From an uncultured Clostridia bacterium (GTDB lineage Bacteria; Bacillota_A; Clostridia; Oscillospirales; Oscillospiraceae), in NCBI GenBank assembly GCA_947307375.1, contig CAMZIX010000004.1, positions 1 to 38,947 on the forward strand: 38,947 nucleotides of DNA, read 5' to 3'. Below the pieces are notes generated by a model. It searched no databases, was not told where the DNA came from, and worked only from the letters and a program-made list of their open reading frames with translations. The stretch's first letter is position 1. Every line of letters starts with the position of its first letter. Shown in pieces: positions 2,663 to 36,024 of this stretch. A program made the translations under genes and the position numbers.

Positions 2663-4270
2663 ATGAATCCGCATTCCTTCGATCCTGTCAAGCCGGTCGT
2701 CGACACGAAATTCGGCAGACTCCGCGGCGTCGGCTACGGCGGCGTGAACCTGTTCATGGGCGTCAGGTACGCCGAAGCCGGGCGCTTTCAGCTCCCCGTG
2801 GAGCAGCAGCCCTGGGAGGGCGTAAAAAACGCCTATGTTTACGGCCCGATCTCCCCGCAGATGGGCGAGCCCAGTCCCTTCCCCTTTTACCGCGGCATCC
2901 TGCTCCTGCAGAAGGAGAGCGAGGACTGCCAGAACCTGAACATCTGGGCGCCGCAGGGCGGCAGCGGGAAGAAGCCCGTCTTTGTCTGGATCCACGGCGG
3001 CGGCTTCATGGCGGGCAACGCCATGGAGGAATACTCCTTTGACGGCTTCAACCTGGCGAAGAAGGGCGACGCGGTCTTTGTCTCCATCAACCACCGCCTG
3101 AACATCCTCGGTTATATGAACCTCACGGAATACGGCGAGGAATTCGCCGAGTCCCCGAACGTCGGTCTCTGGGACCTCGTGGCCGCGCTCCGATGGATCC
3201 ACGAGAACATCGCGGCCTTCGGCGGCGATCCCGATAGTGTGACGATCTGCGGTCACTCCGGCGGCGGCGGCAAGGTGCTCTGTCTCTTCAACATGCCGGA
3301 GGCGGCCCCCTATTTCCACCGCGGCATCTGTCTGAGCGGCGCGACGCCCGCGGGTCCGGCCAGCGAGCCGGAGGACACCCGCGCCCTCGCGCGCGAGATG
3401 CTCGCGCAGCTGAAGATCACCCGGGAGAACATCCGCGAGGTCTACACGGTGCCCTTCCAGCGCCTGGTCTGGGCCTACCGGCAGGTGGCGATGCGCCTGT
3501 TCAACGAGGGGCGCTACGTGATCTTCGAGCCGCAGAAGACCGCGAAATTCCGCGGCTTCCCGCCCTTTAACGGCTTCGATCCCTGCAGTGCGCAGAAGCC
3601 TCTGATCCTGAGCTCCGTGCTCGCGGAATTCGCCGCCTTCCCGGTCAAGGCCGAGGAAAAGGCCGCCATGAGCGAGGCGGACAAGCGCGCCTTCCTGCGG
3701 AGCCGCTACGGCGAGCTCGCCGACGAGATGATCGAGCGCTTCGTCGAGGCCTACCCCGGGCACGACCTGATGGATCTGACCTGTGTGGACACGGTCTTCC
3801 GCCCGCCCACGGTCGAGGCGGCGATGGAAAAAGCCCGCAGCGGCAGCAACAACACCTATGTCCTGATGGCCGCGCTCAACACGCTTGAGGACGGCAATCC
3901 CCCGCTCTGGCACGGCGGCGAAGTCGGTTACGCCTTCCGGAACACCGACCGCGTCTTTGTGCTGTGCGACCCGGCCTGTGAGGAGCGCATGACCGACATC
4001 TTCAGCAGCATCCTGCTGAACTTCGCCAAAACCGGCGATCCCAACAATGAATTCCTGCCGCTCTGGAAGCCCTTCACCGAGGCCGAGCCCAACACCATGC
4101 TGGTCGACAGGGTCTGCGCCCTGCGGGTCGATACGGATCCCGCGACCGGAAAGAAGCTGCCCTTCGACGAGCGGATGATGGATCTGCTGATGCGCGTGAC
4201 GCCGCCCTGGCGGCTCCCGGCCATGTTCGCCGAGGAGGGCGCCACCGCCCAGATCGATATGGATCAGTAA
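2663..4270 (+). CDS. Type-B carboxylesterase
   Basis: 535-aa alpha/beta hydrolase of the carboxylesterase type B family (PF00135; includes pnbA-like esterases), which hydrolyses carboxylic esters. The N-terminus has the usual signature of a strand, LFMGVRYAE and EDCQNLNIWAP; the oxyanion loop HGGG is at residues 111-114; the nucleophile elbow is GHSGG with Ser199 (most relatives have GESAG); the catalytic His is in WHGGEVGYAF at about His417. No signal peptide is visible, so it should be cytoplasmic. Start 2663 is chosen over 2630 because of GGAGG at 2648-2652 and the TATAAT at 2620. It heads an operon with an SGNH esterase (12-nt gap) and a NodB deacetylase. Confidence 0.9.
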   Translation: MNPHSFDPVKPVVDTKFGRLRGVGYGGVNLFMGVRYAEAGRFQLPVEQQPWEGVKNAYVYGPISPQMGEPSPFPFYRGILLLQKESEDCQNLNIWAPQGGSGKKPVFVWIHGGGFMAGNAMEEYSFDGFNLAKKGDAVFVSINHRLNILGYMNLTEYGEEFAESPNVGLWDLVAALRWIHENIAAFGGDPDSVTICGHSGGGGKVLCLFNMPEAAPYFHRGICLSGATPAGPASEPEDTRALAREMLAQLKITRENIREVYTVPFQRLVWAYRQVAMRLFNEGRYVIFEPQKTAKFRGFPPFNGFDPCSAQKPLILSSVLAEFAAFPVKAEEKAAMSEADKRAFLRSRYGELADEMIERFVEAYPGHDLMDLTCVDTVFRPPTVEAAMEKARSGSNNTYVLMAALNTLEDGNPPLWHGGEVGYAFRNTDRVFVLCDPACEERMTDIFSSILLNFAKTGDPNNEFLPLWKPFTEAEPNTMLVDRVCALRVDTDPATGKKLPFDERMMDLLMRVTPPWRLPAMFAEEGATAQIDMDQ

Positions 4271-4282
4271 GAGGTGCCGGAA

Positions 4283-5470
4283 ATGAGCAAATGGATCCCC
4301 AGCTGGAGCTATGTGCCGATCGACTACGGCCTGGACGTCGCGGTGCTGGAAGACGTGAGCCAGCGCTGCCTGATCCGCAACAATCTTGCGGGCACGGGGC
4401 TGCGGGTGCGCTTCAACAACCGCGGCGGCGAGACCCCGCTGTGCATCGAGCACGCCGCGATCCAGCTCGTCAGCCGGGAGAGCGGCCGCCTGTCCGCGCC
4501 GCAGGAGCTGCGGCTGAACGGAGAGCGCCGCATCGTGCTCCCGCCCGACAGCCGCCCCTGGTCCGACCCGCTGACCCTGCCCGTCACGGCAGAGGACGAT
4601 TTCCTGCTCTGGTGCTACTTCAAAGAGCGCAGCGCGGCCCGCTCCGTCTGCGTCACCTTTACCGCGCAGAGCTGGCAGAGCACGCAGCTCAAGGGCGACT
4701 TCTTCGAGACCGAGGCCCTGGGCTACACCTTCAAGTCCGAGCTCGCGCCCCTGCTCGCCTCCGACCCCAATCACAACGAATATGCCGTCGGGATCTGCGC
4801 CGTGTCGGTACTGACCGGGGACGAGAGCCGCCTTGTCGGCGTCTTCGGCGATTCGATCACCCAGATGTCCTATTTCAGCGACGCGCTGCTGGAGCGGCTG
4901 TACCGCGCTTTCCCCGGCCGCGTCTCGCTGATCAACGGCGGGATCTGCGGCAACCGCGTCCAGAAGCCCTTCCCCGTCCTGCCCGATTTCCCGGGCGGCG
5001 GGAAGCAGTTCGGCCCGGCCGGCAGAGAGCGCTTCTTCGCCGATCTCTGCGAAGCCGGCGCGCCGGATCTCGTCTTCGTGATGGAGGGCGTGAACGACTG
5101 CACCCACTCCATCGTGTTCAACGAGGCCTCTGTCCCGACGGCGGAGGAGATCTTCGCCGCGCTTTCCGACGTGGCCGCGCAGGCACACGCGCTGGGCAGC
5201 CAGGTGTATTTGGGCACGATCCCGCCCTTCGGCGGCTTCGGAGAGAGCTGGCGGGACGAGGCGGAGGCTCTGCGCTGCGCGCTCAACGAGCTGATCCGGA
5301 CCAGGGCCCCGGCCGAGGGCGTGGTCGATCTGGACGCCCGGCTGCGCGACCCGCAGGATCCGCACCGGATGCGCGCCGACTGCCATCTCGGCGACGGCGT
5401 TCACCCCAACTGGCGCGGCGGCGAGGAAATGAGCCGGGCCGTGTTCGACGTCTGCTTCAAAGGAGAATGA
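4283..5470 (+). CDS. SGNH/GDSL-family esterase with N-terminal beta domain
   Basis: 395-aa lipase/acylhydrolase. Roughly residues 1-180 form a beta-rich, probably carbohydrate-binding-like region; the C-terminal half is an SGNH hydrolase with block I FGDSIT (Ser191), block III GVND and block V DGVH (Asp371, His374). Relatives deacetylate sugars or plant oligosaccharides, but the exact substrate is unknown. No signal peptide is present. A GTG at 4274 would add three residues, but GAGGTG at 4271-4276 is well placed for ATG 4283. It lies between the type-B esterase and the NodB deacetylase, so all three probably work on the same molecule. Confidence 0.85.
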   Translation: MSKWIPSWSYVPIDYGLDVAVLEDVSQRCLIRNNLAGTGLRVRFNNRGGETPLCIEHAAIQLVSRESGRLSAPQELRLNGERRIVLPPDSRPWSDPLTLPVTAEDDFLLWCYFKERSAARSVCVTFTAQSWQSTQLKGDFFETEALGYTFKSELAPLLASDPNHNEYAVGICAVSVLTGDESRLVGVFGDSITQMSYFSDALLERLYRAFPGRVSLINGGICGNRVQKPFPVLPDFPGGGKQFGPAGRERFFADLCEAGAPDLVFVMEGVNDCTHSIVFNEASVPTAEEIFAALSDVAAQAHALGSQVYLGTIPPFGGFGESWRDEAEALRCALNELIRTRAPAEGVVDLDARLRDPQDPHRMRADCHLGDGVHPNWRGGEEMSRAVFDVCFKGE

Positions 5471-5473
5471 GAC

Positions 5474-6331
5474 ATGGAAAAACGCTTTGATACGCTGCTC
5501 TTTCCCGGCGGGAAGAGCAAGGCCTTCACCCTGAGCTACGACGACGGCGTCGTGCAGGATCGCCGCCTCGCCCCGCTGATCCGCTCCTACGGAATGAAGG
5601 CGACCTTCAACCTCAACGCCGCGCTGCTCGGCGTGGAAGACAAGGGCGGTTTCCCCGGCAAGCCCGATCTGGATATCTCCAAGGTGTCGGCGGAGGAACT
5701 GGAAACGGTCTACGCCGGGCACGAGATCGCCGGGCACGGCCTTTATCACTCCGACCTGGCCGGCGTCGGCGCGCCGCGGGCCAGCTATGAGATCATCGAG
5801 GACAAGCGCCGCCTGGAGGCCCTGTGCGGCCAGCCGCTGCGCATGTTCGCCTATCCCTTCGGGACCTTCAGCGAGGACGTGAAGGAGGCCCTGCGCCTGG
5901 CGGGCTACCACGGCGCGCGCACGATCCGCTCGAGCTACAGCTTCAGGCTGCCGGACGAGCCGCTGCTCTGGGACCCGACCTGCCATCACAACGATCCGCG
6001 TCTGATGGAGCTGGCCCGGGCCTTTGTCGACGAGCCCATGCCCTTCCCGCTGCTGTTTTATGTCTGGGGCCACGGCTATGAGTTCGACGACTGCGGCAAC
6101 TGGCAGGTCATGGAGGAGCTTCTCGCCTTCCTCGCGCCCCACGCCGACACGATCTGGTTTGCAACGAACGGAGAGATCCTCCGCTATCTGGAGGCGCACC
6201 AGAGGCTCGAGTACGCGGCGGACGGCTCGCTGATCCGCAACCCCAGCGCGATCGACGTGATGATCGCCCCCTCCTTTGGACAGAAGCTGCTGCTGAAGGC
6301 GGGCGAAGTGACCCGCGTCCCGGAGGCGTAA
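5474..6331 (+). CDS. NodB-type polysaccharide deacetylase, cytoplasmic
   Basis: 285-aa carbohydrate esterase family 4-like protein. Motif 1 is LSYDDG (Asp23-Asp24), motif 2 is HGLYH (His88 and His92, with the metal-binding Asp of motif 1) and motif 3 is FAYPFG (about 125-130). The family removes N- or O-acetyl groups from sugars with a divalent metal. Unlike most CE4 enzymes it has no signal peptide or membrane anchor, so it should act on imported oligosaccharides and not on the cell wall. It starts 3 nt after the SGNH gene, whose last codons carry the AGGAGA ribosome site, and it ends the operon before a terminator. Confidence 0.85.
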   Translation: MEKRFDTLLFPGGKSKAFTLSYDDGVVQDRRLAPLIRSYGMKATFNLNAALLGVEDKGGFPGKPDLDISKVSAEELETVYAGHEIAGHGLYHSDLAGVGAPRASYEIIEDKRRLEALCGQPLRMFAYPFGTFSEDVKEALRLAGYHGARTIRSSYSFRLPDEPLLWDPTCHHNDPRLMELARAFVDEPMPFPLLFYVWGHGYEFDDCGNWQVMEELLAFLAPHADTIWFATNGEILRYLEAHQRLEYAADGSLIRNPSAIDVMIAPSFGQKLLLKAGEVTRVPEA

Positions 6332-6352
6332 CCGAAAACCGATCCCTGCATC

Positions 6353-6394
6353 ACAGGCAGAGCAGGCCGCCATGGCCCGCCCTGCCTGTTTTTT
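6353..6394 (+). terminator. Terminator of the esterase-deacetylase operon
   Basis: ACAGGCAG (6353-6360) pairs with CTGCCTGT (6382-6389), enclosing a further GC-rich pairing, followed by TTTTTT at 6389-6394. Confidence 0.75.
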
Positions 6395-6415
6395 GTTCCG
6401 TCCGTCCGGGCCTTG

Positions 6416-6467
6416 TTGAATCTTCCCAAACGATATGGTATAATTATTCAGAATCGTCGGCGGGAGG
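6416..6467 (+). promoter_or_regulatory. Promoter and ribosome site of the two-component operon
   Basis: -35 TTGAAT at 6416-6421, 17-nt spacer, extended -10 TGG-TATAAT at 6436-6444, then ribosome site GGGAGG at 6462-6467, 8 nt before ATG 6476. This is the best promoter match in the window. It rules out an earlier start at TTG 6413, which would lie inside the promoter. Confidence 0.75.
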
Positions 6468-6475
6468 TTTCGCCC

Positions 6476-8224
6476 ATGCGAAAGCGTCAGTCTGTAAAAA
6501 AACTGCTGATCCGTCTGTTTTGCTTAATGATCTTCATCACGCTCCTGGGCTTCAGCGTATGCGGAGGCTATTCCCTCTTTTCCATGCAGCGGGAGCTGAG
6601 CTACTGCAACGAGGCGGCGCTGGACGTGTTTTATCAGGGCCTGCAGTTCACCGCAGACGACCTGGAGAGCTTCAGCGGGCTGATTTACGACAAGGACCCG
6701 CTGTTCGGCTCGCTGGGCAGGCAAAGTATTTCAATCGACAATCGGCTCGCCGCCGAGATGAACCTGCGTCAGCTCTGCCGGAGCCGCACCACCGCCAGCA
6801 CCGGCGTTTATCTTTTTGAGCAGGACGGAGGCTTCTCCTATTACTGCTACGGGGACGCTTTCCTCGGCGGGCATCTGACGCCGGCTTTTGTGAAAACGCT
6901 CGCTGAGGTCCGCGCGCTGTGGACCGATCGGGACCCCGTCTCCATGGATCGCTGGACGGTGTACGCCTCCGACGGCACGGCGTTGTTGACGCACGCCGTA
7001 CGGCGCGACGGGCTCTACGCCTGCGTGATGATCGATCTCAACGCCTATGCGCAAACGCACCAGCCCGACGCCGGCAGCTCCGGCATCGCCTTTGCCTTCT
7101 TTGACTCGGAGCGGGTGCTGACCAACGCGGACTATGTTCAGGCCTCCGGTCTGACGCTGGCGGACATCCAGTCGACGGTCGGCGGCAGCCGCCGCGCCGT
7201 GGAAAGCACGCAGATGCTGCACTCGCGCTACTCGGAGGAACTGAACGTCGGACTTTGCGGCATGATCCCCATGACCGGCGTATGGGCAAGTCTGCGCTTC
7301 TATTCCGTACTGCTGATCGTGGCGCTGGCGGTGATCGCCATCATTTTCTGGGTGATCTATACGCTGATGAACCGCATGCTGATCTATCCGCTGGACCGCA
7401 TCTCCCTGGCCAGCCGCCGCCTCGCCTCCGGCGCGACCGAGATCGAACGGCAGAGCGAGCCGATCGTCGAGCTGGATGCGATCCAGGACGCGCTGGGCGG
7501 GCTGGTGGATCAGAAGGTCTCGCTGGAGCGGGAGTCTCTCAGCCAGACCTATCAGAAGGAGCACGCGCTGCTGCAGTACTACCAGCTTCAGATGCGCTCG
7601 CACTTCTTCCTGAACTGCCTCAAGAGCATCTACAACATGACCTCCCGCGGGGAGACGGACAAGACCCTGCGCGTGATCACGCTGTTTTCCAACCATCTGC
7701 GCTACGTCTTCCATGACAGCCTCTCCCTGATGCCGGTGCGCGCGGAGCTGGCGGAGGTGGAGGACTATTTCCATATCATCGAGTTTGAGCGCTCCGACCA
7801 CATCCTGCTGACGCAGGAGGTCGATCCCGAGCTGCTGGATTTCCCCGTGCCGCCGCTGATCATCCAGACCTTTCTGGAAAACTTCAACAAGCACAACGCC
7901 CTGTCCGACCGGATCCTGCGCTTTGTGATCCGCATCGACCGGGTGGAGATGGAGGGCCGGAGCTACGTCCGCCTGCGGCTGAGCGACAACGGCGTCGGCT
8001 ACGACCGGGAAGCCTTGAAAACGATGGAGCAGCAGGACGGACTCTTTGCCCAGTATCACGTCGGGATCCAGAACCTCCGGCGGCGTCTGGACATCCTCTA
8101 TCAGAACGATTATCAGATCGCCTTTTACAACAATCCGGGCGGCGGCGCCTGTTCGGTGATCTATCTGCCCTGGACCGGGCCCGCCGCAGAAAATGAAAAG
8201 GAGCAGGAGGGCGAAAACGAATGA
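6476..8224 (+). CDS. YesM-like sensor histidine kinase
   Basis: 582-aa membrane sensor kinase of the His_kinase (PF06580)/LytS-YesM type. TM1 spans about residues 12-34, an extracellular sensor domain about 35-273, TM2 about 275-297 (VLLIVALAVIAIIFW), then a HAMP-like linker. The phosphoacceptor motif is MRSHFFLNCLKSI with His376. The ATP-binding domain shows the N-box region (IIQTFLENFNKH) and the DNGVGYD G-box, ending in NLRRRLDILY and a final strand. Proteins of this family sense carbohydrate, often together with a solute-binding protein, and phosphorylate a YesN partner. Here the partner starts within the last codon (ATGA overlap at 8221-8224). The likely target is the neighbouring ABC importer and esterase genes. 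Confidence 0.93.
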   Translation: MRKRQSVKKLLIRLFCLMIFITLLGFSVCGGYSLFSMQRELSYCNEAALDVFYQGLQFTADDLESFSGLIYDKDPLFGSLGRQSISIDNRLAAEMNLRQLCRSRTTASTGVYLFEQDGGFSYYCYGDAFLGGHLTPAFVKTLAEVRALWTDRDPVSMDRWTVYASDGTALLTHAVRRDGLYACVMIDLNAYAQTHQPDAGSSGIAFAFFDSERVLTNADYVQASGLTLADIQSTVGGSRRAVESTQMLHSRYSEELNVGLCGMIPMTGVWASLRFYSVLLIVALAVIAIIFWVIYTLMNRMLIYPLDRISLASRRLASGATEIERQSEPIVELDAIQDALGGLVDQKVSLERESLSQTYQKEHALLQYYQLQMRSHFFLNCLKSIYNMTSRGETDKTLRVITLFSNHLRYVFHDSLSLMPVRAELAEVEDYFHIIEFERSDHILLTQEVDPELLDFPVPPLIIQTFLENFNKHNALSDRILRFVIRIDRVEMEGRSYVRLRLSDNGVGYDREALKTMEQQDGLFAQYHVGIQNLRRRLDILYQNDYQIAFYNNPGGGACSVIYLPWTGPAAENEKEQEGENE

Positions 8225-9825
8225 GGGTCATGTTTGTCGATGATCAGACCAGCGTTCTGAAGGGCATCGCCACAGGGGTGCGCTTTCAGGAGCTCGGCGT
8301 GCGCAGCGTCCGCTATGCCACCGGCACGGACAGCGCGCTCGAACTGCTGGAGAACGAAAGCGCCGATCTGCTGTTCTGCGACGTGGAAATGCCGGGCCGA
8401 AACGGCCTGGAGCTGGTCCGGGAGGTCCGTGAGCGCTGGCCGGATACGCTCGTCGTGCTGCTGACCAGCCACGCGGAATTCGAATTCGCGCAGGAGAGCA
8501 TGCGCCTCGGCTGCTTTGACTACATCCTGCAGCCCGCGCCTTACGACGTGATCGAGGCGATCATCCAGCGCGCCCGGCAGCAGTTCCAGGAGCAGAGCCG
8601 CCGCAGCCGGCTTGTCGAGATCGGAAGCCGCATGCGCACCAGCGGGATGGAGCTGCTGGACAACCTGACGCTCGGTCTGCTGAGCAGGGCGGAGGAAGAA
8701 CGGAACGAGTCCATCGAGATGCTGGCTCTGCTGGACTATCCGCTGTCGTCGGACACGCCCTCGCGGCTGCTGCTTTTCCACTTTTCCAGCTTTCGCCGGG
8801 CGGAATCCTATCTCTCGGCAGAAAAAAGCATCCACCGTGCCTTTGCGGATGCGATGAAGCGCTCCGAGCTCAGCTTTTCCTCGCTGCATCTGAGCGCGCT
8901 GGACCATCGGGGAAATTTCCTGCTGCTTCTCTTTCAGGCCGACAGCGCGCGCGAAGCGGAGCTGAGCGACGAAGACGTCCGCCGGCTCTTCGATTGCCTC
9001 TGTCTCACGCGGCCGAACGAGCCGATCCAGTGCTGTGCCGGCGGCCGGGTCCCTCTCGAGCGCCAGCACGAGGTACTGCCTCTGCTCCGGGACACGATCG
9101 ACGGGAAGCCGAGCGGTGAGGGGCTGCTGTTCATGACCAGCGATGGAGAGCGCGCCGGCTTTCAGAGTGAGCGTCTCGGCGGGGACAGCACGCGCTGGAG
9201 CACCATGCTGGCCACCGGGCAGCGCCGCTCCTTCCTCAACGAAGTGGAGGCCGCCCTGTCCGGCATCGAAAGTATGCCCACCGGCCGCGCGAAGGCCCTC
9301 TGCCTGCTGCATCAGCGCATCACCCACGTCTTTTTCAACTATTTCTATGAAAACGGCGCGGATGTCCACCGGCTCTTCCAAAGCCAGTACACCTACAACG
9401 AATACATGAGCAGCTTCTCCGACCCGGACGCCATGCGCATCGCCGTCGCCTATATGATGCGCCAGTCCGAGGAGCTGGAGCAGATGCCCGCGCCTGTCAG
9501 CAGCATCGAGAAGGCGAAGACCTTCATCTCCGAAAACCTTTCCAATCCGATCTCCGTCAAGGACGTGGCCGACCACGTATACATGAGCCCGGAATACTTC
9601 ACCAAGCTCTTCAAACGCGAGACCGGGCAGAATATCAAGGAGTACATCACGCTCTCCAAGATCGAGGCCGCCAAGGACATGCTGGAGCACACCGCCATCT
9701 CGATCGGCATGGTGGCGCTGGAGCTGGGATACAGCAGCTTCTCCCATTTCTCCCAGGTCTTCCGCAAATACGAAAACCTGTCCCCCAGCGAATACCGCAA
9801 CAAGCTGACGGGAGAAGAGGAATAA
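8221..9825 (+). CDS. YesN-like response regulator with AraC-type HTH
   Basis: 534-aa transcription factor. The N-terminal receiver domain has acidic Asp7-Asp8, phosphoacceptor Asp54 (CDVEMPGRNG) and Thr82-Ser83 (LTSHAEFEFA). A middle region (about 130-420) of unknown fold is typical for YesN proteins. The C-terminus (about 430-530) is an AraC/XylS double helix-turn-helix (ISVKDVADHVYMSPEYFTKL and ALELGYSSFSHFSQVFRKY). Oddity: the highly conserved receiver lysine of the KP motif is Gln104 here (YILQPA). It is coupled to the sensor kinase by a 4-nt overlap. It probably activates the nearby importer and hydrolase operons, though its binding sites are not identifiable by eye. Confidence 0.92.
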   Translation: MRVMFVDDQTSVLKGIATGVRFQELGVRSVRYATGTDSALELLENESADLLFCDVEMPGRNGLELVREVRERWPDTLVVLLTSHAEFEFAQESMRLGCFDYILQPAPYDVIEAIIQRARQQFQEQSRRSRLVEIGSRMRTSGMELLDNLTLGLLSRAEEERNESIEMLALLDYPLSSDTPSRLLLFHFSSFRRAESYLSAEKSIHRAFADAMKRSELSFSSLHLSALDHRGNFLLLLFQADSAREAELSDEDVRRLFDCLCLTRPNEPIQCCAGGRVPLERQHEVLPLLRDTIDGKPSGEGLLFMTSDGERAGFQSERLGGDSTRWSTMLATGQRRSFLNEVEAALSGIESMPTGRAKALCLLHQRITHVFFNYFYENGADVHRLFQSQYTYNEYMSSFSDPDAMRIAVAYMMRQSEELEQMPAPVSSIEKAKTFISENLSNPISVKDVADHVYMSPEYFTKLFKRETGQNIKEYITLSKIEAAKDMLEHTAISIGMVALELGYSSFSHFSQVFRKYENLSPSEYRNKLTGEEE

Positions 9826-10959: not shown

Positions 10960-10962
10960 AGG

Positions 10963-13652: not shown

Positions 13653-13669
13653 GGTCTCTTTCCTTTCTC

Positions 13670-13699
13670 AAAAAAGTGGGGGCACCGGAGTGCCCCCAC
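13670..13699 (-). terminator. Terminator after the solute-binding protein gene
   Basis: Perfect 10-bp stem GTGGGGGCAC / GTGCCCCCAC at 13676-13685 and 13690-13699 with a 4-nt loop, followed on the minus strand by a T-run (13670-13675). It lies 29 nt downstream of the binding-protein stop and just before the MFS ribosome site, so partial read-through would give high binding protein and lower MFS/hydrolase levels. Confidence 0.88.
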
Positions 13700-13728
13700 A
13701 TAGGCGGTGGGATAATGGGATCTGCGAT

Positions 13729-15377: not shown

Positions 15378-15382
15378 CGGCT

Positions 15383-15471: not shown

Positions 15472-15480
15472 CAAATCCCG

Positions 15481-27896: not shown

Positions 27897-29410
27897 AGCT
27901 GAAGCTCCGCCCCGGCATCCCGGACGACGCCAATCGGGAATACCTGCCCGAATCGCTGCGCGGCAGCGAGATCGTGGTCAACGAAAACGGCAACAACTCC
28001 CTGCCCTACCCCACGCGCCTGCGGGAAGTCACGGGCGTGCTGGCTGACGGGCTGGAGGACCGCTGGTACGAATATGTGCCCGAGAGCTATGACGGCTCAA
28101 AGCCCGTGCCGCTGGTCGTCGGCTGCCACGGCGGCCTGATGACCGGCTGGGGCCACTCGGTCTATACTTCCTGGACGATGGTGGCCGACCGCGAGGGCTT
28201 CATCTGCGTCTTCCCGGACGCGCACAGCCAGCGGATGTGGACGGTCGAGGGCATCTTCGACAACTGGGATCCCGCAAGCGCCCCGACCCTGCCCATCCAG
28301 CGCGCGCCGAAGGACTGGCGCGAAAACCACGACATGAAATACCTGGAGGCCCTGATCGGCCTCATGGAAGAGAAATACAACATCGATCCGGGCCGGATCT
28401 TCATGCAGGGCATGAGCATGGGCAACTTCATGACCGGCATGTTCGCCCGCTACCGCGGCCAGCTCCTGGCCGGCGCGGCGGGCTCCGGCGGCCCCGCCCG
28501 CCCGGAAATGCTCTTCGACGCGGAGGGCCGCGTCAAAAACATCGGCGGCCCGCTGGCCGTCTGGCAGTCCCGCCCCGAAAAGAACGGCCTGCCTCCCGGC
28601 GCGAGCTACGACGAGGCGGTCATCAACAAATACGCCCGCTTCTACTGGATGCTCGTCAACGAGTGCGACCCGGTGCCGCAGATCCGAATCGAAGGCGAGG
28701 ATAACTTCGCTTTCTACAAAGGCAAGAAGGCCGACCTCGTGTATCTCGACATCAAAAACCGCGATCACGGTCAGACCCTGGACGAGGCCTTCCTCTACTG
28801 GGACTTCCTGTTCTCCGGCGTCCGGAAGGGGCCGGACGGCCGCGTGATCATGGGCGAGACCCTGCGGCCCCGCACAGGCGACGCCTTTGCCCTGGCCTTT
28901 GCCGAGGGGCGGCACGCCTGCTGGTTCAAAAACAGTGTGCAGGCCCTGCCCGCGGCCCCGGTCTGGTGGCAGAAGCTCAAATACCACGGCCTTGACGGCG
29001 GGCAGCTTGTGAGAGGCGAATACCTCTGCGTGCCGCTGCGCTTCCTGGCCGAGGCCTTCGGCGCGGAATACCGGACCGCGGACGGCGGCGCGAGCGCGGC
29101 GCTCCTGTTGCCCGGCGGGCGCGAGGCGCAGTTCGCCCGCGGCAGCATCGGCTGCCTTGTGGACGACACGCTGCGCTGCATGTACTGCGAGGCGCTCGAG
29201 CGAGAGGGTGAGCTGCTGGTCAGCGCGGAGTGGTTCTGCAAATATCTGTTCAACTGTCAGGTCTCCGTCTGCAACGGCGTGGTCTATATCACCGACCACT
29301 TCGTGGATCTCTCCTTCTTCCTGGCGGATCTGATCCTCGACCTGCTGGACGGCAGGGCGCTGCCGACGGATTTTTCCCACATCGACACCGGAGAAAACAA
29401 AGAAACTTAA
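27893..29410 (+). CDS. PHB-depolymerase-like esterase with C-terminal CuAO-N-like domain, paralog 3
   Basis: 505-aa paralog. Opening LRPGIPDDANREYLPE and VVNENGNNS; Ser175 (GMSMGN) and His292 (KNRDHGQT). The C-terminal domain (about 370-495) has VRGEYLCVPLRFLAEAFGA, GSIGCLVDDTLRCMYCEAL and SAEWFCKYLFNCQV. The ATG overlaps the stop of the pseudo-esterase gene by 4 nt, so this hydrolase is tied in expression to the EstA-like trio just upstream. No signal peptide. Confidence 0.82.
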   Translation: MKLKLRPGIPDDANREYLPESLRGSEIVVNENGNNSLPYPTRLREVTGVLADGLEDRWYEYVPESYDGSKPVPLVVGCHGGLMTGWGHSVYTSWTMVADREGFICVFPDAHSQRMWTVEGIFDNWDPASAPTLPIQRAPKDWRENHDMKYLEALIGLMEEKYNIDPGRIFMQGMSMGNFMTGMFARYRGQLLAGAAGSGGPARPEMLFDAEGRVKNIGGPLAVWQSRPEKNGLPPGASYDEAVINKYARFYWMLVNECDPVPQIRIEGEDNFAFYKGKKADLVYLDIKNRDHGQTLDEAFLYWDFLFSGVRKGPDGRVIMGETLRPRTGDAFALAFAEGRHACWFKNSVQALPAAPVWWQKLKYHGLDGGQLVRGEYLCVPLRFLAEAFGAEYRTADGGASAALLLPGGREAQFARGSIGCLVDDTLRCMYCEALEREGELLVSAEWFCKYLFNCQVSVCNGVVYITDHFVDLSFFLADLILDLLDGRALPTDFSHIDTGENKET

Positions 29411-29424: not shown

Positions 29425-30525
29425 ATGAGAATCGTGATCCATACCCTGATGGACGACTTCGGCCAGATGGTCGACGGCATCCGCCTCGAGCTGGACGCCA
29501 CCGCCCCCGCCCTGAAGCCGGAGGATTTCACCTGCAAAGACTGCTATTATAACCTCGGCGCGACCAAGACCATCCCCGGCGTGAAGACCGTGACGGCGGA
29601 AGGCAATACCCTCGCCCTCAGCTTCAAGCCCTTCCTCTTCCGCGTCGACTTCGCCGTGGCCTGCCCCGCCCTGGGCGTCACGGTCACGAAGGAGAACGCC
29701 GACGCGGTGGAGCTCTATCACGAGGATATGTTCCGCCCGGTGGCGGAGCGCGGCGTGATCTACCGCATCTACGAGCCGGACGCCTTCGGCCCCCGTCCCC
29801 TGGTCCTCTTCCTGCACGGCGGCGGCGGCTGCGGCGACGACAACCTCCTGCAGCTGACCGATACCATCGGCGCGATCAAGCTCGCCGAGCGCGTGCCCGA
29901 TATGTACGTGATGGCGCCCCAGGCCCCCGCGGGCGGTCTGAGCATGGAGGAGATGTTTGCCAAGATGTGCTCGAAGGGCGACCCGCACAAGGTCATCCTC
30001 GGCGCGGACACCTGCAACGAGAAGATCGACCGCGGCTGGACGCGGGAGTACCTCGGCCGCGTGATCGACGAGATCCGGCTGATGATCGCCGCCGGCAAGG
30101 TCGACCCCCACCGCGTCTATGTCATCGGCATGAGCATGGGCGGCTTCGGCACGCTCAAGGCCGTGTCCATGGCGCCGGAGCTCTTCGCCGCCTGCGCGCC
30201 GATCTGCCCGAGCCTGAACAACGAGACCTATCCGATCCTGGAGAATTTCCCCGAGGTCCCGGCCTATATCTCCACCGCCTATATCGATCACCAGGTCAGC
30301 CGTCACGCCTATATCCTCCGCGCCGTGCAGAAGCTCTGGGAGAAGGGCCGCCGCGACGTGCGCTTCACCATTTTCTCCGCCGAGGAGCTGGCCGAGTACG
30401 GCATCGGCGTCACCGAGGGCATCAGCGCCAAGCAGCTCTATGAGGAAAACCACAACAGCTGGATCCTCGCGCTGCACAACGAATACTGCATCCTCGACTG
30501 GATGTTCTCCCACGTCAAGGGCTGA
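29425..30525 (+). CDS. Phospholipase/carboxylesterase-like hydrolase with N-terminal beta domain
   Basis: 366-aa protein. The first 115 or so residues are beta-rich and Ig-like (DFGQMVDGIRLEL opening), resembling the N-terminal domain of some peptidase/esterase hybrids; the rest is an alpha/beta hydrolase with oxyanion loop LHGGGGCGDDN, elbow GMSMGGFG (Ser237) and His343 in ENHNSW. This two-domain plan matches esterases annotated as prolyl-oligopeptidase-like or carboxylesterases. No signal peptide, so cytoplasmic. An AAGGAGA ribosome site lies before ATG 29425. The gap to the next gene is 3 nt. Confidence 0.82.
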   Translation: MRIVIHTLMDDFGQMVDGIRLELDATAPALKPEDFTCKDCYYNLGATKTIPGVKTVTAEGNTLALSFKPFLFRVDFAVACPALGVTVTKENADAVELYHEDMFRPVAERGVIYRIYEPDAFGPRPLVLFLHGGGGCGDDNLLQLTDTIGAIKLAERVPDMYVMAPQAPAGGLSMEEMFAKMCSKGDPHKVILGADTCNEKIDRGWTREYLGRVIDEIRLMIAAGKVDPHRVYVIGMSMGGFGTLKAVSMAPELFAACAPICPSLNNETYPILENFPEVPAYISTAYIDHQVSRHAYILRAVQKLWEKGRRDVRFTIFSAEELAEYGIGVTEGISAKQLYEENHNSWILALHNEYCILDWMFSHVKG

Positions 30526-30528
30526 GCG

Positions 30529-32016
30529 ATGGCACAGATCAGACTGCGCCCCGGCGATCCGAACGACGAGAATCGGGACTATCTGCCGGAGGCGATCAAG
30601 ACCAGTCAAATGGTGGTCAACGAGAACGGCAACAATTCCCGGCCCATGCCGCCCCGGCTGCAGGAGTTCCGCGGCGACCTGGCGGGCGACGGGCTCGAAG
30701 ACGTCTGGTATGAGTACGTTCCCGAAAGCTACGATCCCGCGAAAAAGACGCCCCTGGTCTTTTCCATGCACGGCGGCCTGATGACCGGCTGGGGCCAGTG
30801 CATCTACACCAGCTGGACCTACGTGGCCGACCGCGAGGGCTTCATCTGCGTGTTTCCCAGCGCGCACAGCCGCCGCTTCTGGCAGATCATGTGCGAGGAG
30901 GAGCTGAAGGACCTGCTCTCCGCGGAGAACCCGGAGGGCATCTACCTCAACCCCTTCCCCGCCGATATCCGCGAGAATCACGACGCCAATTTTGTGCTGG
31001 CCTTGCTGGAGCGCATGAAGGCGCGCTACAACATCGACGAGGGCCGCGTCTACATGCAGGGCATGAGCCTCGGCAACGCGATGACGCAGATGATGGCGCG
31101 CTTCTATTCCTCGCGCTTCGCCGCGATGGCCGGCTCCGCCGGTCCGGCGCGCAAAACGCTGCTCTTCCGTCCGGACGGCACGCCCGAGCACGAGAGCCTT
31201 CCCGTGGACGCCTGGCAGACCCGCATGGAGCTGGATCAGCCCGCGCCCGCCTGCTCGGACGACTACGAGGACGTAGTCGCCTACAACCGGGACTACTGGC
31301 TGAAGATCAACGGCTGCGAGGAGCTGCCCCGCATCCGCCTCTTCGGGGAAAACGGCTTTGCCTTCTATCACGGCAAATACGCCGACTACGTCTTCCGGGA
31401 CGTGAAAAACCGCGACCACGGCCAGACCTTCGACGACGCGGAGCTGGTGTGGGACTATCTCTTCTCCGGCGCGCGCCGCGCGGAGAACGGCCGCATCGTC
31501 CATGAGCCGACGGCCATCCCCGCGGAAAACGACCGGGAGGCGGTCGCCTGCGTGGCCGGCTGCCGCCGCGCCTGGGTGAACGGTGCGATCGTCCCGCTGA
31601 ACGGAGAGGCCTTCCTCTGGCAGAAGCTCAAGTATCACGGGCTGCAGGGCGGCGCTCTGGTCCGCGGCGAGTATCTGATGCTGCCGCTCCCCTTCCTGGC
31701 CGGCGTGACGGGCGCGCTCTGTGTCCCCGGCGACGGGGGCCGCACGGCCGAGCTTCGGCTGGCGGACGGGCGCTGCGCCCAGTTTGCCCAGGGCTCGATC
31801 GGCGCGGTCGTGGACAACCGCATCCGCAGCATGGACTGCGAGGCCGTGCTGCAGGACGGGCAGCTCTATGTCTCCGGCGAGTGGGCGCTGCGCGAGCTGG
31901 CGGGCCGTCAGGTTTCCCGCAGCCGCGACGGGCTCTACGCCACCGACCACGAGACCCGTCTTTCCACCCACATGACCCGGCTGCTGCGCGATCTTCTCAC
32001 AGAGGAGCCGGTGTAA
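30529..32016 (+). CDS. PHB-depolymerase-like esterase with C-terminal CuAO-N-like domain, paralog 4
   Basis: 495-aa paralog: LRPGDPNDENRDYLPE opening, Ser180 (GMSLGN), His297 (KNRDHGQT). It is the most diverged of the five in the C-terminal domain (GSIGAVVDNRIRSMDCEAVL; SGEWALRELAGRQV) and lacks the Trp-Phe-Cys pair of the others. It has its own segment after strand 4 (DLLSAENPEGIYLNPFPADI), so substrate range probably differs. It is followed by the DUF624 gene with an AAGGAGG ribosome site. Confidence 0.82.
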   Translation: MAQIRLRPGDPNDENRDYLPEAIKTSQMVVNENGNNSRPMPPRLQEFRGDLAGDGLEDVWYEYVPESYDPAKKTPLVFSMHGGLMTGWGQCIYTSWTYVADREGFICVFPSAHSRRFWQIMCEEELKDLLSAENPEGIYLNPFPADIRENHDANFVLALLERMKARYNIDEGRVYMQGMSLGNAMTQMMARFYSSRFAAMAGSAGPARKTLLFRPDGTPEHESLPVDAWQTRMELDQPAPACSDDYEDVVAYNRDYWLKINGCEELPRIRLFGENGFAFYHGKYADYVFRDVKNRDHGQTFDDAELVWDYLFSGARRAENGRIVHEPTAIPAENDREAVACVAGCRRAWVNGAIVPLNGEAFLWQKLKYHGLQGGALVRGEYLMLPLPFLAGVTGALCVPGDGGRTAELRLADGRCAQFAQGSIGAVVDNRIRSMDCEAVLQDGQLYVSGEWALRELAGRQVSRSRDGLYATDHETRLSTHMTRLLRDLLTEEPV

Positions 32017-32031: not shown

Positions 32032-32649
32032 ATGCTTCGGCCTGAATCGCCGATCGGCCAGGCGCTCACCTGGGCCTGCAATCTGCTGCTTCTGAGTCTG
32101 CTCTATCTGGTCTTTTCTCTTCCCGTCTTTACGGTCGGGGCCGCGGCGATCACGCTCTACGAGGAGGTCTTCGCCGTCAGGGAAGGCCGGGACGGCATCC
32201 TGATCAAGGACTATTTCGACGCCTTCCGGCGGAATTTCCGCAAGGGGATGGGGATGCTCGCGGTCTACGCCGCGGCGGTCCTGCTGATCGGCGGCGTCAC
32301 CGGCGCGCTGATCCTGGTCGGCATGGCGGTACGTCCGGCCGTGCTGATCTCCCTGGCCCTGATCGGCGGTCTCGTCTGCTGGGTACCGATCCTCGCCGGT
32401 CGCTACGAGCAGAAGCTCGGGATCACAGTGCGCAATTCCTATCTCATCGGCATCCGCAATCTGCCCCTTACCCTGCTGCTCGCGCTGCTGAACTTCGGTC
32501 TGCCGGCTCTGATCTGGCTGATGCCGGAGGATCTGCTGCGCTGGTATCTGTTCCTGCTGCTGTTCTTTCTCCCCGCCGGCTGCGCCTTCCTGTCTGCGGA
32601 GCTGGTGCTGCGCGTACTGAAGAAGCAATACCCCGATCAAGCTGACTGA
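32032..32649 (+). CDS. DUF624 (YesL-like) membrane protein
   Basis: 205-aa integral membrane protein with four to five predicted helices (about 17-40, 75-100, 102-120, 145-162, 168-190). The opening with a conserved hydrophobic helix followed by VFTVGAAAITLY is the DUF624/YesL signature; these genes are regular companions of YesMN-regulated oligosaccharide importers in Firmicutes. The molecular role is unknown. Its place in the middle of the hydrolase operon supports the view that the whole operon serves uptake and processing of one kind of glycan or glycoside. Confidence 0.88.
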   Translation: MLRPESPIGQALTWACNLLLLSLLYLVFSLPVFTVGAAAITLYEEVFAVREGRDGILIKDYFDAFRRNFRKGMGMLAVYAAAVLLIGGVTGALILVGMAVRPAVLISLALIGGLVCWVPILAGRYEQKLGITVRNSYLIGIRNLPLTLLLALLNFGLPALIWLMPEDLLRWYLFLLLFFLPAGCAFLSAELVLRVLKKQYPDQAD

Positions 32650-32663: not shown

Positions 32664-33530
32664 ATGCTGAAAAAGTACATATACCACGACGTGAACTTCC
32701 GCGGAACCATCGACCGTGTGACCTACACGACCCACAATCCCGAGGGCGAGCTGCGGCAGAAGTACGCCAATATCTATCTCCCTTACGGCTATGACCCGGC
32801 AGGCGAAAAGAAATACGACATCCTCTATCTGATGCACGGCGGCGGCGGGAATCCCGACGCCTGGCTGGACTGCAGCATGGTCAAGAATATGCTGGACTAC
32901 TGCTTCGCGGAAAAGGAGGCCGAGCCCTTCATCGTCGTCTTCCCGAGCTTCTACAAGGAGCAGATCAGCCGCATCGGCGCGCCGGTGGCGGAGGTCGAAC
33001 AGCAGAAGGTCCTCGACTTCATCCCCGAGGTCGTCAGCGAGCTGCTGCCCGCGGTGGAAGCGCATGTTCGCGGCTACGCCGAGACTTTGGACCCGGAGGG
33101 CTTCCGCGCCAGCCGCGCCCACCGTGCCTTCGGCGGCTTCTCCATGGGCTCCTGCACGACCTGGTATCAGTTCATCGAGAATCTGCCCTGTTTCTCCGTC
33201 TTCCTGCCCCTGAGCGGCGACTGCTGGGCCGTAGAGCCGCGCGGCGGCGGCACCAAGCCCGCCGAGACGGCGGAGATCCTGGCCCGGGCGGCCCTGGACG
33301 GGCTCAAGGCGGGCTACGATTTCCGCATCTACGCCGCGACCGGCAGCCTCGACCCTGCCTTTGGCAGCATGGAGCCGCAGATCGAGCAGATGAAACGCCA
33401 CCCGGTCTTCGCCTTCAACGAGGATCCTGCGGCAGGCAACTGCCACTTCGAGGTGGCCGAGGGAGAGCGCCACGCCTACGAATGCGTGTACAACTATCTC
33501 TACAGCTACCTCCCCTATCTCTTTCAGTGA
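32664..33530 (+). CDS. CE1-like feruloyl/acetyl-xylan esterase homolog
   Basis: 288-aa alpha/beta hydrolase (PF00756) with the plan of carbohydrate esterase family 1: YLPYGYD entry, YLMHGGGGNPDAW oxyanion loop, elbow GGFSMGS (Ser160) and His270 in GERHAYECVYNYLY. CE1 enzymes release ferulate or acetate from plant cell-wall sugars. The absence of a signal peptide means it would act on imported fragments. It differs from the six EstA-like proteins in having the catalytic His very near the C-terminus. It lies between DUF624 and the fifth PHB-like paralog, with gaps of 14 and 9 nt. Confidence 0.87.
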   Translation: MLKKYIYHDVNFRGTIDRVTYTTHNPEGELRQKYANIYLPYGYDPAGEKKYDILYLMHGGGGNPDAWLDCSMVKNMLDYCFAEKEAEPFIVVFPSFYKEQISRIGAPVAEVEQQKVLDFIPEVVSELLPAVEAHVRGYAETLDPEGFRASRAHRAFGGFSMGSCTTWYQFIENLPCFSVFLPLSGDCWAVEPRGGGTKPAETAEILARAALDGLKAGYDFRIYAATGSLDPAFGSMEPQIEQMKRHPVFAFNEDPAAGNCHFEVAEGERHAYECVYNYLYSYLPYLFQ

Positions 33531-33539: not shown

Positions 33540-34997
33540 ATGGAACTGAAGCTGCGTGCGGGTACGCCGAACGACGCCAACCGCGATTATGTGCCGCTCG
33601 GCATCCCCGGGACCGATATGACGGTCAATGAAAACGGCAACAACTCCCAGGTCTATCCCGAAAAGCTGCGCGAATTTTCCGGCGTGCTGGCCGACGGGGA
33701 GACGGACCTGTGGTACGAATACGTCCCCGCGAGCTACGACGGCTCAAAACCCGTGCCGCTGGTGGTCAGCAACCACGGCGGCCTGATGAGCGGCTGGGCT
33801 CAGGCGGTCTACAGCTCCTGGACGCTGCTGGCCGAGCGCGAGGGCTTCATCTGCGTGTTCCCCAACGCCCATGCCCTGCAGATGTGGACGCTCCAGGGCA
33901 TGACCGACAAGGTGCGCGCCAATCCCGAGCTGGTGCTGCCGATCCCCGCCGATCCCGAGGACTGGCACGACAACCACGATGTAAAATTCGTCAAGGCGCT
34001 GATCGAGCGCATGCAGGAGAAATACCGGATCGACGCCGGCCGCATCTACATGCACGGCATGAGCATGGGCCATATGATGACCGATCAGTTCGCCCGCTTC
34101 TACGGCTATCTGCTGGCCGGGGCCGGCGGCTCCGGCGCAAGCTGCATGCCGGGTCAGCTCCGTACGCCGGACGGCGAGCTCCGCAACTGGGGCGGCCCGG
34201 TGCCGATGTGGATCTCTCACCCCGAGCTCAACGGCATGGACGGCCCTCTGGACGAGGAGCAGCGGCTCCAGCAGCTCAGCCGGGACTACTGGTCGCAGAT
34301 CAACGGCGTTTACGGCGCCCCGCAGATCCGCATCATCGGCGAGAACAACCTCGCCTTCTACAAGGGCGAAAAGGCCGACCTGGTCTGGCTTGACATCAAG
34401 AACCGCGATCACGGTCAGACTCTTGACGAGGCCTTCCTGATCTGGAACTACCTGTATTCCGGCTTTCGCCGCCTGCCCGATGGCACGCTGCAGTACGAGG
34501 GCAGCCGCCTCGCTGCGGAGGGCGACGCGCAGGCGCTGGCCTGCTCCGCAGGATGCCGGAAGGCCTGGTTCTGCAACGGCACGGTGGAGCTCCCCGCCGT
34601 CCCCGTCCTCTGGGACAAGCTGAAATACCACGGCCTCGACGGCGGACAGATGGTGCGCGGGTCCTATCTCTGCGTCCCGCTGCGCTTCCTCGCCGCGGCC
34701 TTCGGCGCCTCCTACGAGACGAATCTGGAGGGCAGCGAGGCGACGCTCCGCTTCCCGGACGGCCGCCGGGCGCAGTTTGCCCGCGGTGTGATCGGCTGCC
34801 TGGTGGACGAGGAGCTCGTCTCCATGTACTGCGAGACCCTGCAGCGCGAGGGCGAGCTGCTGGTCAGCGTCGAGTGGTTCTGCCGCGCGCTGCTGAATCT
34901 GCACGTCTCCGTCTGCAACGGCACGGTCTACGCCACCGACCACTTTGCCGAGCTGTCTTACTTCATGGCGGAACTGATCAAAGACCTGATCCGATGA
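33540..34997 (+). CDS. PHB-depolymerase-like esterase with C-terminal CuAO-N-like domain, paralog 5
   Basis: 485-aa paralog, the shortest: LRAGTPNDANRDYVP opening, TVNENGNNS, Ser175 (GMSMGH; His replaces the Asn seen in the other four), His291 (KNRDHGQT). The C-terminal domain has VRGSYLCVPLRFLAAAFGA, GVIGCLVDEELVSMYCETL and SVEWFCRALLNLHV. A GGTGAG ribosome site abuts the previous stop. It is the last hydrolase of the operon, followed by a short stem-loop and the sugar kinase. Confidence 0.82.
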   Translation: MELKLRAGTPNDANRDYVPLGIPGTDMTVNENGNNSQVYPEKLREFSGVLADGETDLWYEYVPASYDGSKPVPLVVSNHGGLMSGWAQAVYSSWTLLAEREGFICVFPNAHALQMWTLQGMTDKVRANPELVLPIPADPEDWHDNHDVKFVKALIERMQEKYRIDAGRIYMHGMSMGHMMTDQFARFYGYLLAGAGGSGASCMPGQLRTPDGELRNWGGPVPMWISHPELNGMDGPLDEEQRLQQLSRDYWSQINGVYGAPQIRIIGENNLAFYKGEKADLVWLDIKNRDHGQTLDEAFLIWNYLYSGFRRLPDGTLQYEGSRLAAEGDAQALACSAGCRKAWFCNGTVELPAVPVLWDKLKYHGLDGGQMVRGSYLCVPLRFLAAAFGASYETNLEGSEATLRFPDGRRAQFARGVIGCLVDEELVSMYCETLQREGELLVSVEWFCRALLNLHVSVCNGTVYATDHFAELSYFMAELIKDLIR

Positions 34998-35006: not shown

Positions 35007-35031
35007 CACGGCGGACGAATCGGCCGCCGTG
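35007..35031 (+). other. Intercistronic stem-loop before the sugar kinase
   Basis: CACGGCGG (35007-35014) pairs perfectly with CCGCCGTG (35024-35031), 9-nt loop, no T-run. It begins 9 nt after the stop of the last esterase and ends 9 nt before the kinase ribosome site (AGGAGG at 35040-35045). It probably protects or separates transcript ends and does not terminate. Confidence 0.6.
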
Positions 35032-35052
35032 CGATATACAGGAGGAAACGAA

Positions 35053-36024
35053 ATGAGCGAAAAACAGTTTGACGTCGTCGCGCTGGGCGAGCTGCTGATC
35101 GATTTCACGGAAAACGGGACCAGCGAACAGGGCAATCCGCTGCTGGAGGCCAATCCCGGCGGCGCGCCCTGCAATGTGCTGGCCATGCTGACCCGACTTG
35201 GAAAACGGACGGCCTTCATCGGCAAGGTCGGCCGGGACATGTTCGGCGACCAGCTCCGGCAGGCCGCCGCGGAGGTCGGGATCTGCATGGACTATCTGCT
35301 GGAAGACCGCGAGGTCCACACGACGCTCGCCTTTGTCAAGACCTTCCCCAACGGAGACCGCGACTTTTCCTTTTATCGGGAGCCGGGCGCCGACATGATG
35401 CTGCGCGCGGACGAGCTGCCGAAGGAAGCGCTGCTCCACACGAAGATCTTTCACTTCGGCACCCTTTCGATGACGCATCCGGAGGTCCGCTTTGCCACGC
35501 GCAAGGCCGTCACTCTGGCGAAGGAGGCCGGCGCGCTGATCTCCTTTGATCCCAATCTGCGCCCGCCGCTCTGGTTCAGCCTCGACGAAGCCAAGGAGCA
35601 GATCGCCTGGGGCCTGAGCCGCTGTGACATCCTCAAGATCGCCGACAATGAGCTGCTGTTCATGACCGGCGAGGCCGATTTTGACCGCGGCGCCGCGATC
35701 CTGCGCAGGGACTATCCCAACATCCGCCTCCTGAACGTTACGGCGGGCTCGGAGGGCAGCATCTGCTATTACGGGAACAAGCGCGTGTCTGTTCCGGCCT
35801 TCCGCCTGGGCGGAACGATCGAGACCACCGGCGCGGGCGACACCTTCTGCGCCGGCGTGCTGAACTACGTTCTGGAAAACGGCGTCGCCAGGCTGAGCGA
35901 GAAGCAGCTCGCAGACATGCTCCGCTTCGCCAACGCGGCGGCCTACCTCGTCACGACGAAAAAAGGCGCGCTCCGCGTCATGCCGGAGCGCGGGGATGTG
36001 GAACGGATCCTCGCCTCTCATTGA
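35053..36024 (+). CDS. PfkB-family sugar kinase, probable fructokinase
   Basis: 323-aa ribokinase/PfkB-fold kinase. The N-terminal VVALGELLIDF and NPGGAPCNVLAMLTRLG are the fructokinase-type PfkB signature 1 region, and TTGAGDTFCAGVL carries the catalytic Asp263 and the anion hole. Likely reaction: ATP-dependent phosphorylation of fructose, or another keto- or aldo-sugar, released in the cytoplasm. ATG 35053 is chosen over the upstream ATG 35029 because AGGAGG at 35040-35045 is well spaced. As the only sugar-metabolising gene of the operon it is the best hint at the core sugar, but PfkB specificity cannot be settled by eye. Confidence 0.88.
   Translation: MSEKQFDVVALGELLIDFTENGTSEQGNPLLEANPGGAPCNVLAMLTRLGKRTAFIGKVGRDMFGDQLRQAAAEVGICMDYLLEDREVHTTLAFVKTFPNGDRDFSFYREPGADMMLRADELPKEALLHTKIFHFGTLSMTHPEVRFATRKAVTLAKEAGALISFDPNLRPPLWFSLDEAKEQIAWGLSRCDILKIADNELLFMTGEADFDRGAAILRRDYPNIRLLNVTAGSEGSICYYGNKRVSVPAFRLGGTIETTGAGDTFCAGVLNYVLENGVARLSEKQLADMLRFANAAAYLVTTKKGALRVMPERGDVERILASH

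Follow-up and report, generated by a model that had tools for sequence, protein, structure and literature searches.

A YesMN-type importer locus of an uncultured Clostridia bacterium with twenty hydrolase-fold genes: a candidate system for the utilisation of acylated sucrose or a similar glucoside

Introduction

Loci combining an importer, the YesM/YesN sensor kinase and response regulator and a set of enzymes are of a known kind; the rhamnogalacturonan yes locus is an example of those with a DUF3502-type importer. The locus described here occupies positions 2630–36024 of a 38,947-nucleotide stretch (the window; contig CAMZIX010000004.1, assembly GCA_947307375.1) from an uncultured member of the Oscillospiraceae. 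It shares with such loci YesM and YesN, a solute-binding lipoprotein (SBP) with two permeases, and a DUF624 protein. It differs from them in that nearly all its enzymes have esterase folds, and the only recurrent sugar-cleaving enzyme is a phosphorylase found in its relatives. Loci for acetylated xylan or mannan likewise bring several carbohydrate esterase families together, but they carry many glycosidases, unlike the window.

Two described enzyme families are also close to the proteins discussed below. The phosphorylase of the relatives resembles the GH13_18 sucrose phosphorylases (PDB 7qqj; Bifidobacterium adolescentis 1r7a) in scoring above the TIGR03852 cut-off and in its close full-length alignment, whereas its clade has lost the NLD residues of loop A, is separate and is linked to esterases. 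The EstA/FphF-type esterases (4rgy, 4rot, 2uz0, 6vh9) are matched by the window protein EstA2 in sequence and by EstB2 in fold, but the EstB proteins and EstC2 of the window are without the serine. Among openly licensed (CC0, CC BY or CC BY-SA) PubMed Central papers, considered mostly by title and start of abstract and with subscription papers outside the scope, nothing was found that reports bacterial acylsugar catabolism, this clade of phosphorylases or a locus of this sort devoted solely to deacylation.

We consider it rather probable that the locus serves the YesMN-controlled utilisation of an acylated alpha-glucoside, most likely an acylsucrose, which would be imported, deacylated inside the cell and then phosphorolysed. 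The presence of a sucrose-phosphorylase-like enzyme among the genes of related loci suggests an acylated sucrose or a similar acylated glucoside, and its recurrence points to a specific small sugar core.

Related loci and their phosphorylase

Searching genome contigs with the PHB-like fusion proteins of the window, five in number, revealed 58 loci in the Bacillota, Chloroflexota and Actinomycetota (50 assemblies by contig names; eight assemblies gave two loci each). In what follows L numbers denote related loci and G numbers genomes. Record titles place many of the carriers in gut or rumen. The neighbour maps reveal the same gene families as in the window: at least five hydrolase families occur in 26 of the 58 loci; 22 of the 26 add a permease at 35% identity or more, and in 16 of those 22 the phosphorylase is present too. 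An earlier, sequence-only reading of the window had proposed a search for loci sharing at least five families plus the permeases, and had held that esterases unlinked to the importer would speak against its inference. The 22 loci are of the kind sought and show linkage. In a further 21 of the 58 no such permease was seen in the fetched stretch, and several of these stretches are short or stop where their contig ends. As a number of stretches are short contigs, the counts of 26, 22 and 16 are lower bounds. Gene calling was poor at very high G+C (L131–L134).

The commonest gene absent from the window encodes a GH13_18 protein of about 486 residues. The fetched stretches of 34 of the 58 loci contain such a protein with at least 45% identity to that of L015; 33 of the 34 are of the esterase-linked kind and L046 has the canonical loop. 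The L015 protein, the one tested, scored 617 bits on TIGR03852 (cut-off 334), and its best PDB match is named sucrose phosphorylase. Loci without the gene were followed into their genomes (22 of 23 loci, in 19 genomes; L013 was left out and L009 not included). Nine of the 19 genomes have a match at 61–76% identity, one has a full-length match at 51%, and nine have distant or partial matches only. The L009 contig carries a phosphorylase of 76% identity outside the stretch first fetched. In two Gemmiger loci (L003, L004) the phosphorylase gene immediately precedes EstC1 and follows EstB1 or EstA1, within an otherwise window-like operon; the corresponding slot of the window holds a beta-lactamase-fold gene.

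A tree of 65 GH13_18 proteins (74 before duplicates and short rows were dropped) placed the 41 linked ones, from three phyla, on one side of a 100/100 branch. Labels were taken from the loci, those of L060 and L063–L065 from the fusion-carrying genome and not from a flanking window-type esterase. Long ORFs (open reading frames) in L029 and L031 at first resembled a phosphorylase-esterase fusion, which was rejected: the frame called in L031 extends too far upstream, and in L029/L118 a disrupted phosphorylase frame reads on into the neighbouring gene.

The association of phosphorylase and fusion was examined in three samples drawn by taxonomy round a centre genome, each centre having been picked for its fusion; scoring was confined to the six or seven top first-look candidates of each genome, and the P values treat genomes as independent, with kinship uncorrected. 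In the Paenibacillus oryzae family (245 genomes) the phosphorylase is present in 8/9 fusion carriers versus 0/236 others (P = 3e-14; 7/8 and P = 9e-13 without the centre). These eight proteins have 68–73% identity and are encoded 41–2290 bp from the fusion, one (G451) as a disrupted frame. Other hits in this family do not exceed 56%; of 22 fetched, 11 have the loop NNLDIYQ, six DVHQ (a TtSPP-like loop) and five were unread. In the Actinomyces ruminicola order (248 genomes) the clade phosphorylase (57–61% identity) accompanies 3/3 fusions versus 2/245 fusion-free genomes (P = 4e-6; 2/2 and P = 2e-4 without the centre). No window-type esterase was seen beside the clade phosphorylase of L131, L132 and L133 (G566, G594 and G486), high-G+C actinobacteria in which gene calling was poor. 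In the Mediterraneibacter massiliensis family (200 genomes) three genomes have the fusion and one of them, the centre, the phosphorylase (77% identity, 4.4 kb away); hits in 12 other genomes do not exceed 54%, and the clade is absent from the 197 fusion-free genomes.

The acceptor loop was compared by the pattern NLDxYQ, read from 7qqj, 7qqi and Paenibacillaceae relatives. In the B. adolescentis enzyme it reads Asp342-Leu343-Tyr344-Gln345, and Asp342 binds fructose O4 (PMC7178133). Among 44 proteins, 40 loops were read and only that of L046 has NLD; the loops of L065–L067, read separately, have no NLD either, and the L036 fragment does not include this region. The evidence supports the glucose half of the predicted substrate well, but not the other half.

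A strict sucrose-6F-phosphate phosphorylase (SPP)-like gene, with the KxxYYQ loop given as the motif of that enzyme in PMC7178133, occurs with an adjoining gene for a P-loop protein inside the esterase loci L009 (15908–18591) and L036 (13103–15731, the SPP in two overlapping frames). The L009 copy, the only one searched, is closest in the PDB to IcSPP (6s9u). The only Pfam match of the P-loop protein is Zeta_toxin, below the cut-off. The review PMC7178133 links SPP to a kinase gene; in the accessible text of PMC6521584 no passage on a kinase beside SPP was found. In L135 a canonical-loop (NLDLYQ; 4901–6409) and a clade-loop (KQYQ; 6868–8421) GH13_18 phosphorylase lie less than 0.5 kb apart, which suggests different jobs for the two.

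Gene content and organization of the window

Pfam analysis of the ORFs between 2630 and 36024 revealed twenty intact hydrolase-fold genes with all frames open, together with one ABC importer, YesMN, an MFS protein, a DUF624 protein and a PfkB kinase. The genes form three groups, COest-SGNH-NodB-YesM-YesN, a minus-strand group at 9874–15300 (SBP, MFS, beta-lactamase-fold 1 and the CE2-like SGNH; strand corrected) and a plus-strand group at 15526–36024:

2630–4270, plus strand: COest, type-B carboxylesterase (PF00135, E = 6.7e-73)
4274–5470, plus: SGNH/GDSL hydrolase (PF13472, 4.5e-18)
5474–6331, plus: NodB-type polysaccharide deacetylase (PF01522, 1e-16)
6413–8224, plus: YesM-type sensor kinase (PF06580)
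8221–9825, plus: YesN-type response regulator with AraC DNA-binding domain (PF00072, PF00165)
9874–10959, minus: CE2-like SGNH esterase (CE2_N PF17996, PF13472)
10963–12468, minus: beta-lactamase-fold esterase 1 (PF00144, 2e-26)
12465–13652, minus: MFS transporter (PF07690, 2.1e-62)
13729–15300, minus: SBP of the ABC importer (DUF3502, 3e-25; SBP_bac_1; hydrophobic N-terminus)
15526–16551, plus: ABC permease 1 (PF00528)
16567–17448, plus: ABC permease 2 (PF00528)
17474–17506, no strand: hairpin with perfect 13-nt arms, between permease 2 and the esterases
17531–18376, plus: EstA1, EstA-like esterase with serine (PF00756)
18378–19100, plus: EstB1, EstA-like without nucleophile serine, probable pseudoenzyme (PF00756, 6.6e-5; GTGGG motif)
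19113–20285, plus: beta-lactamase-fold esterase 2, in the slot of the Gemmiger phosphorylase (PF00144)
20301–21122, plus: EstC1, EstA-like esterase with serine (PF00756)
21135–22640, plus: PHB-like/CuAO-N-like fusion 1 (PF10503, alignments)
22656–24227, plus: PHB-like fusion 2, PHB2 (alignments, NCBIfam, structure model)
24209–25372, plus: beta-lactamase-fold esterase 3 (PF00144, 1.6e-58)
25376–26263, plus: EstC2, EstA-like, Ser to Ala, probable pseudoenzyme (PF00756; GYAMG)
26271–27104, plus: EstA2, EstA-like esterase (PF00756; EstA/FphF relatives in the PDB)
27120–27896, plus: EstB2, probable pseudoenzyme (PF00756; GVGTG; model pLDDT 93)
27893–29410, plus: PHB-like fusion 3 (alignment to PHB2)
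29425–30525, plus: IgEst, hydrolase with N-terminal extension, Ig-like according to the sequence-only reading (PF00326/PF00756)
30529–32016, plus: PHB-like fusion 4, PHB4 (PF10503)
32032–32649, plus: DUF624 membrane protein (PF04854)
32664–33530, plus: CE1-like esterase (PF00756, 9e-6; GFSMG in 11/11 relatives)
33540–34997, plus: PHB-like fusion 5 (alignment to PHB2)
35029–36024, plus: PfkB sugar kinase, probably a fructokinase (PF00294)

The count of twenty given by the sequence-only reading thus stands, as do its families: COesterase (1), SGNH (2, one with CE2_N), Polysacc_deac_1 (1), Beta-lactamase (3), EstA-like PF00756 (6), CE1-like (1), an abhydrolase with N-terminal extension (1) and PHB-like fusions (5). 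The importer (PF00528 twice, SBP with DUF3502) and YesM and YesN were also correctly recognised, while the MFS, DUF624 (32032–32649) and PfkB (35029–36024) genes were absent from its list. Its statement that no glycosidase is present holds for the window, where the scanned ORFs gave no Pfam match to glycosidase or lyase families, but not for the relatives, 34 of whose 58 fetched stretches contain the GH13_18 phosphorylase.

From permease 1 to PfkB (15526–36024) the gaps are at most 31 bp, with the single exception of 82 bp containing the hairpin; such small gaps are consistent with one long operon, in which the hairpin perhaps sets transporter versus enzyme expression levels. Plus-strand ORFs at 9922–15270 were discarded as shadow ORFs without Pfam match. 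Rfam gave nothing at gathering scores on the window. The NCBIfam matches of the MFS protein are all below cut-off, the best being of the drug-efflux type; MFS proteins occur in many related loci and MATE proteins in some. The flanks contain a two-gene aconitase X and Flavodoxin_4 on the left (27–2200) and FeoB on the right (36423–38711), none with an evident tie to the esterase locus.

The hydrolases

The five PHB-like fusions align to PHB2 at 53–62% identity. With Pfam (E up to 0.001) two of the five match Esterase_PHB and the other three match nothing; PHB2 has PHB-depolymerase-type NCBIfam matches below cut-off, and PF07833 (CuAO-N) is precomputed for three of 120 homologues among the matches listed. 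A model of PHB2 (pLDDT 88) resembles CE1-type acetylxylan and feruloyl esterases and PHB depolymerases, and its Ser177 and His294 are invariant across 29 aligned sequences.

The GxSxG motif is present in EstA1, EstA2 and EstC1 and is kept in 9/9, 18/18 and 41/41 of their respective relatives, as it is in 11/11 relatives of the CE1-like protein and 19/21 of IgEst (two unscored). At the nucleophile position EstB1 and EstB2 have Gly and EstC2 has Ala. The serine is missing from all 20 aligned members of the EstB subfamily (18 relatives and the two of the window; 19 Gly, 1 Asn), an alignment that leaves out the frames of L003, L004 and L052, and GxAMG is found in 14/18 EstC2 relatives, the remaining four being unscored by the pattern. 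The model of EstB2 (mean pLDDT 93) matches EstA-type esterases by fold. Judging from these residues, EstB1, EstB2 and EstC2 are probably pseudoenzymes and at least three of the twenty are probably not hydrolases, so that twenty is too high as a count of active enzymes. Of 21 EstB genes in relatives, 20 adjoin an EstA gene, and the EstB proteins are probable pseudoenzyme partners.

Hydropathy averages, a cruder guide than a trained predictor, reveal no signal-like N-terminus in any of the twenty hydrolases: the highest 12-residue mean within the first 50 residues is 1.84, compared with 3.16 for the SBP, and no 19-residue segment exceeds 1.6 except two in PHB4. The hydrolases look cytoplasmic. 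The stripping of many acyl groups from an imported molecule, as the sequence-only reading had it, fits this location and the linkage of esterases to the importer in relatives, with the reservation that at least three of the twenty would probably take no catalytic part.

The operator-like element

The 225-bp region between the SBP and permease 1 genes contains two divergent copies of a 36-bp element, consisting of two 12-bp half-sites 21 bp apart. Together with one weaker site these are:

15363–15398, minus strand: probable operator copy facing the SBP operon (matrix score 42.4; outside the training set)
15460–15495, plus: second probable copy, oriented towards the permease/esterase operon (56.3; one of the training sites)
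2564–2599, plus: weak operator-like site upstream of COest (17.8, far below the two others; may be chance)

The site at 15460–15495 matches 27/27 consensus positions (0/200 shuffles). Of 23 SBP/permease regions (the window and 22 relatives, two duplicate pairs among them), 19 did better than every one of 200 mononucleotide shuffles. The regions of L001 and L021 are cut by gene calls, yet the matrix finds sites there; L027/L038, the same region, is weak. The matrix was built from 15 sites, which score high by construction. Its copies lie mostly at SBP/permease, with some before EstB2, PHB, beta-lactamase-fold 3 or CE1 genes and a few elsewhere (L002, L008, L018), and none turned up when each of the 58 loci was shuffled once. 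We infer that YesN binds this element. Importer, regulator and enzymes are co-located with a shared operator-like element, as is expected of Gram-positive utilisation loci.

Proposed function and alternatives

In the pathway that we favour the lipoprotein and two permeases would import the sugar ester intact, and cytoplasmic esterases of several folds would take off different acyl groups. In most relatives the core would next be phosphorolysed by the dedicated GH13_18 enzyme, giving glucose 1-phosphate plus another sugar. The window, which retains the fructokinase-like PfkB, would depend on a cleaving enzyme encoded elsewhere. Sucrose as the core is favoured by the GH13_18 family itself, by the strict SPP-like gene with its P-loop neighbour in L009 and L036, by the PfkB of the window and by a GH32 and PfkB pair in Gemmiger. 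Four of the five PDB matches of PfkB (E up to 1e-30) are named fructokinase, and fructokinase is its best NCBIfam model (195 bits). A Gemmiger locus (L003) has a GH32 and PfkB pair 4.5 kb from the gene set, with its own regulator and importer genes. Plants make many sucrose esters, and plant acylsugars or phenylpropanoid sucrose esters are the most likely cargo. From a single plant species 24 phenylpropanoid sucrose esters have been described whose acetyl patterns vary (PMC10301492); such variably acetylated esters would suit a battery of esterases.

Several observations weigh against acylsucrose utilisation. The ORF scan found no GH13_18 phosphorylase in the window; L001, the closest relative found, is also without one, and its genome (G001) has only weak GH13 matches. 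By contig names, the clade gene is not shown for 11 of the 50 assemblies. The sole positive genome of the Mediterraneibacter sample is its chosen centre, and that sample therefore gives no independent support. In the Actinomyces order two of the 245 fusion-free genomes have the phosphorylase, and in G486 the gene is on another contig. The PfkB score is below the NCBIfam fructokinase cut-off of 450. Lastly, the linked proteins with a readable loop have no NLD before YQ, while the loop Tyr and Gln are kept; with the fructose-O4-binding Asp lost, the second product may be a sugar other than plain fructose. Near the clade gene of L009 (G025) and that of L135 there is a further sucrose(-phosphate) phosphorylase gene, so the clade enzyme may have another task.

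These last points bear on a variant with the same mechanism and another alpha-glucoside as core, for instance an acylated glucosyl-polyol or glucosyl-phenolic matched by the altered clade. The clade loop is unlike the GH13_18 motifs in the available parts of PMC7178133 and PMC6720575, and in G025 and L135 the separate gene is strict SPP-like or canonical sucrose-phosphorylase-like. We regard this variant as not very likely, in view of the TIGR03852 score well above cut-off, the PDB match to a sucrose phosphorylase, the retained Tyr and Gln and the fructokinase-like PfkB.

Deacetylation or deferuloylation of imported xylo- or manno-oligosaccharides, to be cut by glycosidases encoded elsewhere, would agree with the likeness of the PHB2 model to acetylxylan and feruloyl esterases; CE1, CE2 and NodB-like families act on hemicellulose glycans, and YesMN/DUF3502 importers often serve oligosaccharides. 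It appears improbable given the recurrence of an alpha-glucoside phosphorylase in relatives and the lack of a glycosidase match in the window and among the 25 families listed, out of 59 in all, for 49 unassigned in-locus genes. A Pfam comparison of these 49 (E up to 1e-13) also gave no glycosidase, a weak negative, since even GH13_18 proteins reach no better than 3e-9 and 6e-5 with this database. The MFS proteins of many loci, the MATE proteins of some and the nearness of the window MFS, below cut-off, to the drug-efflux type might suggest that the esterases destroy antimicrobial acyl compounds, as detoxification or salvage with the sugar part incidental. This is very improbable, as the importer, the operator-like element common to it and the esterase operon, and the associated phosphorylase all point to nutrition.

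Acylsucrose utilisation might be carried further, to a dedicated catabolism shared by three or more phyla, where the altered-loop clade would be a phosphorylase for sucrose still acylated on the fructose ring and the active/inactive EstA-EstB pairs would be heteromeric sugar-ester hydrolases; we put this forward as speculation and think it unlikely in full.

Significance

If the proposed function is correct, the locus would represent a bacterial route for the use of plant sugar esters and possibly of sucrose-ester food emulsifiers. It would also add several candidates for sugar-ester hydrolases, and a GH13_18 clade whose acceptor specificity is probably new. The fusion gene, the phosphorylase clade and the operator-like element together offer a marker for finding more such loci, and the locus provides conserved, nearly always paired pseudo-esterases.

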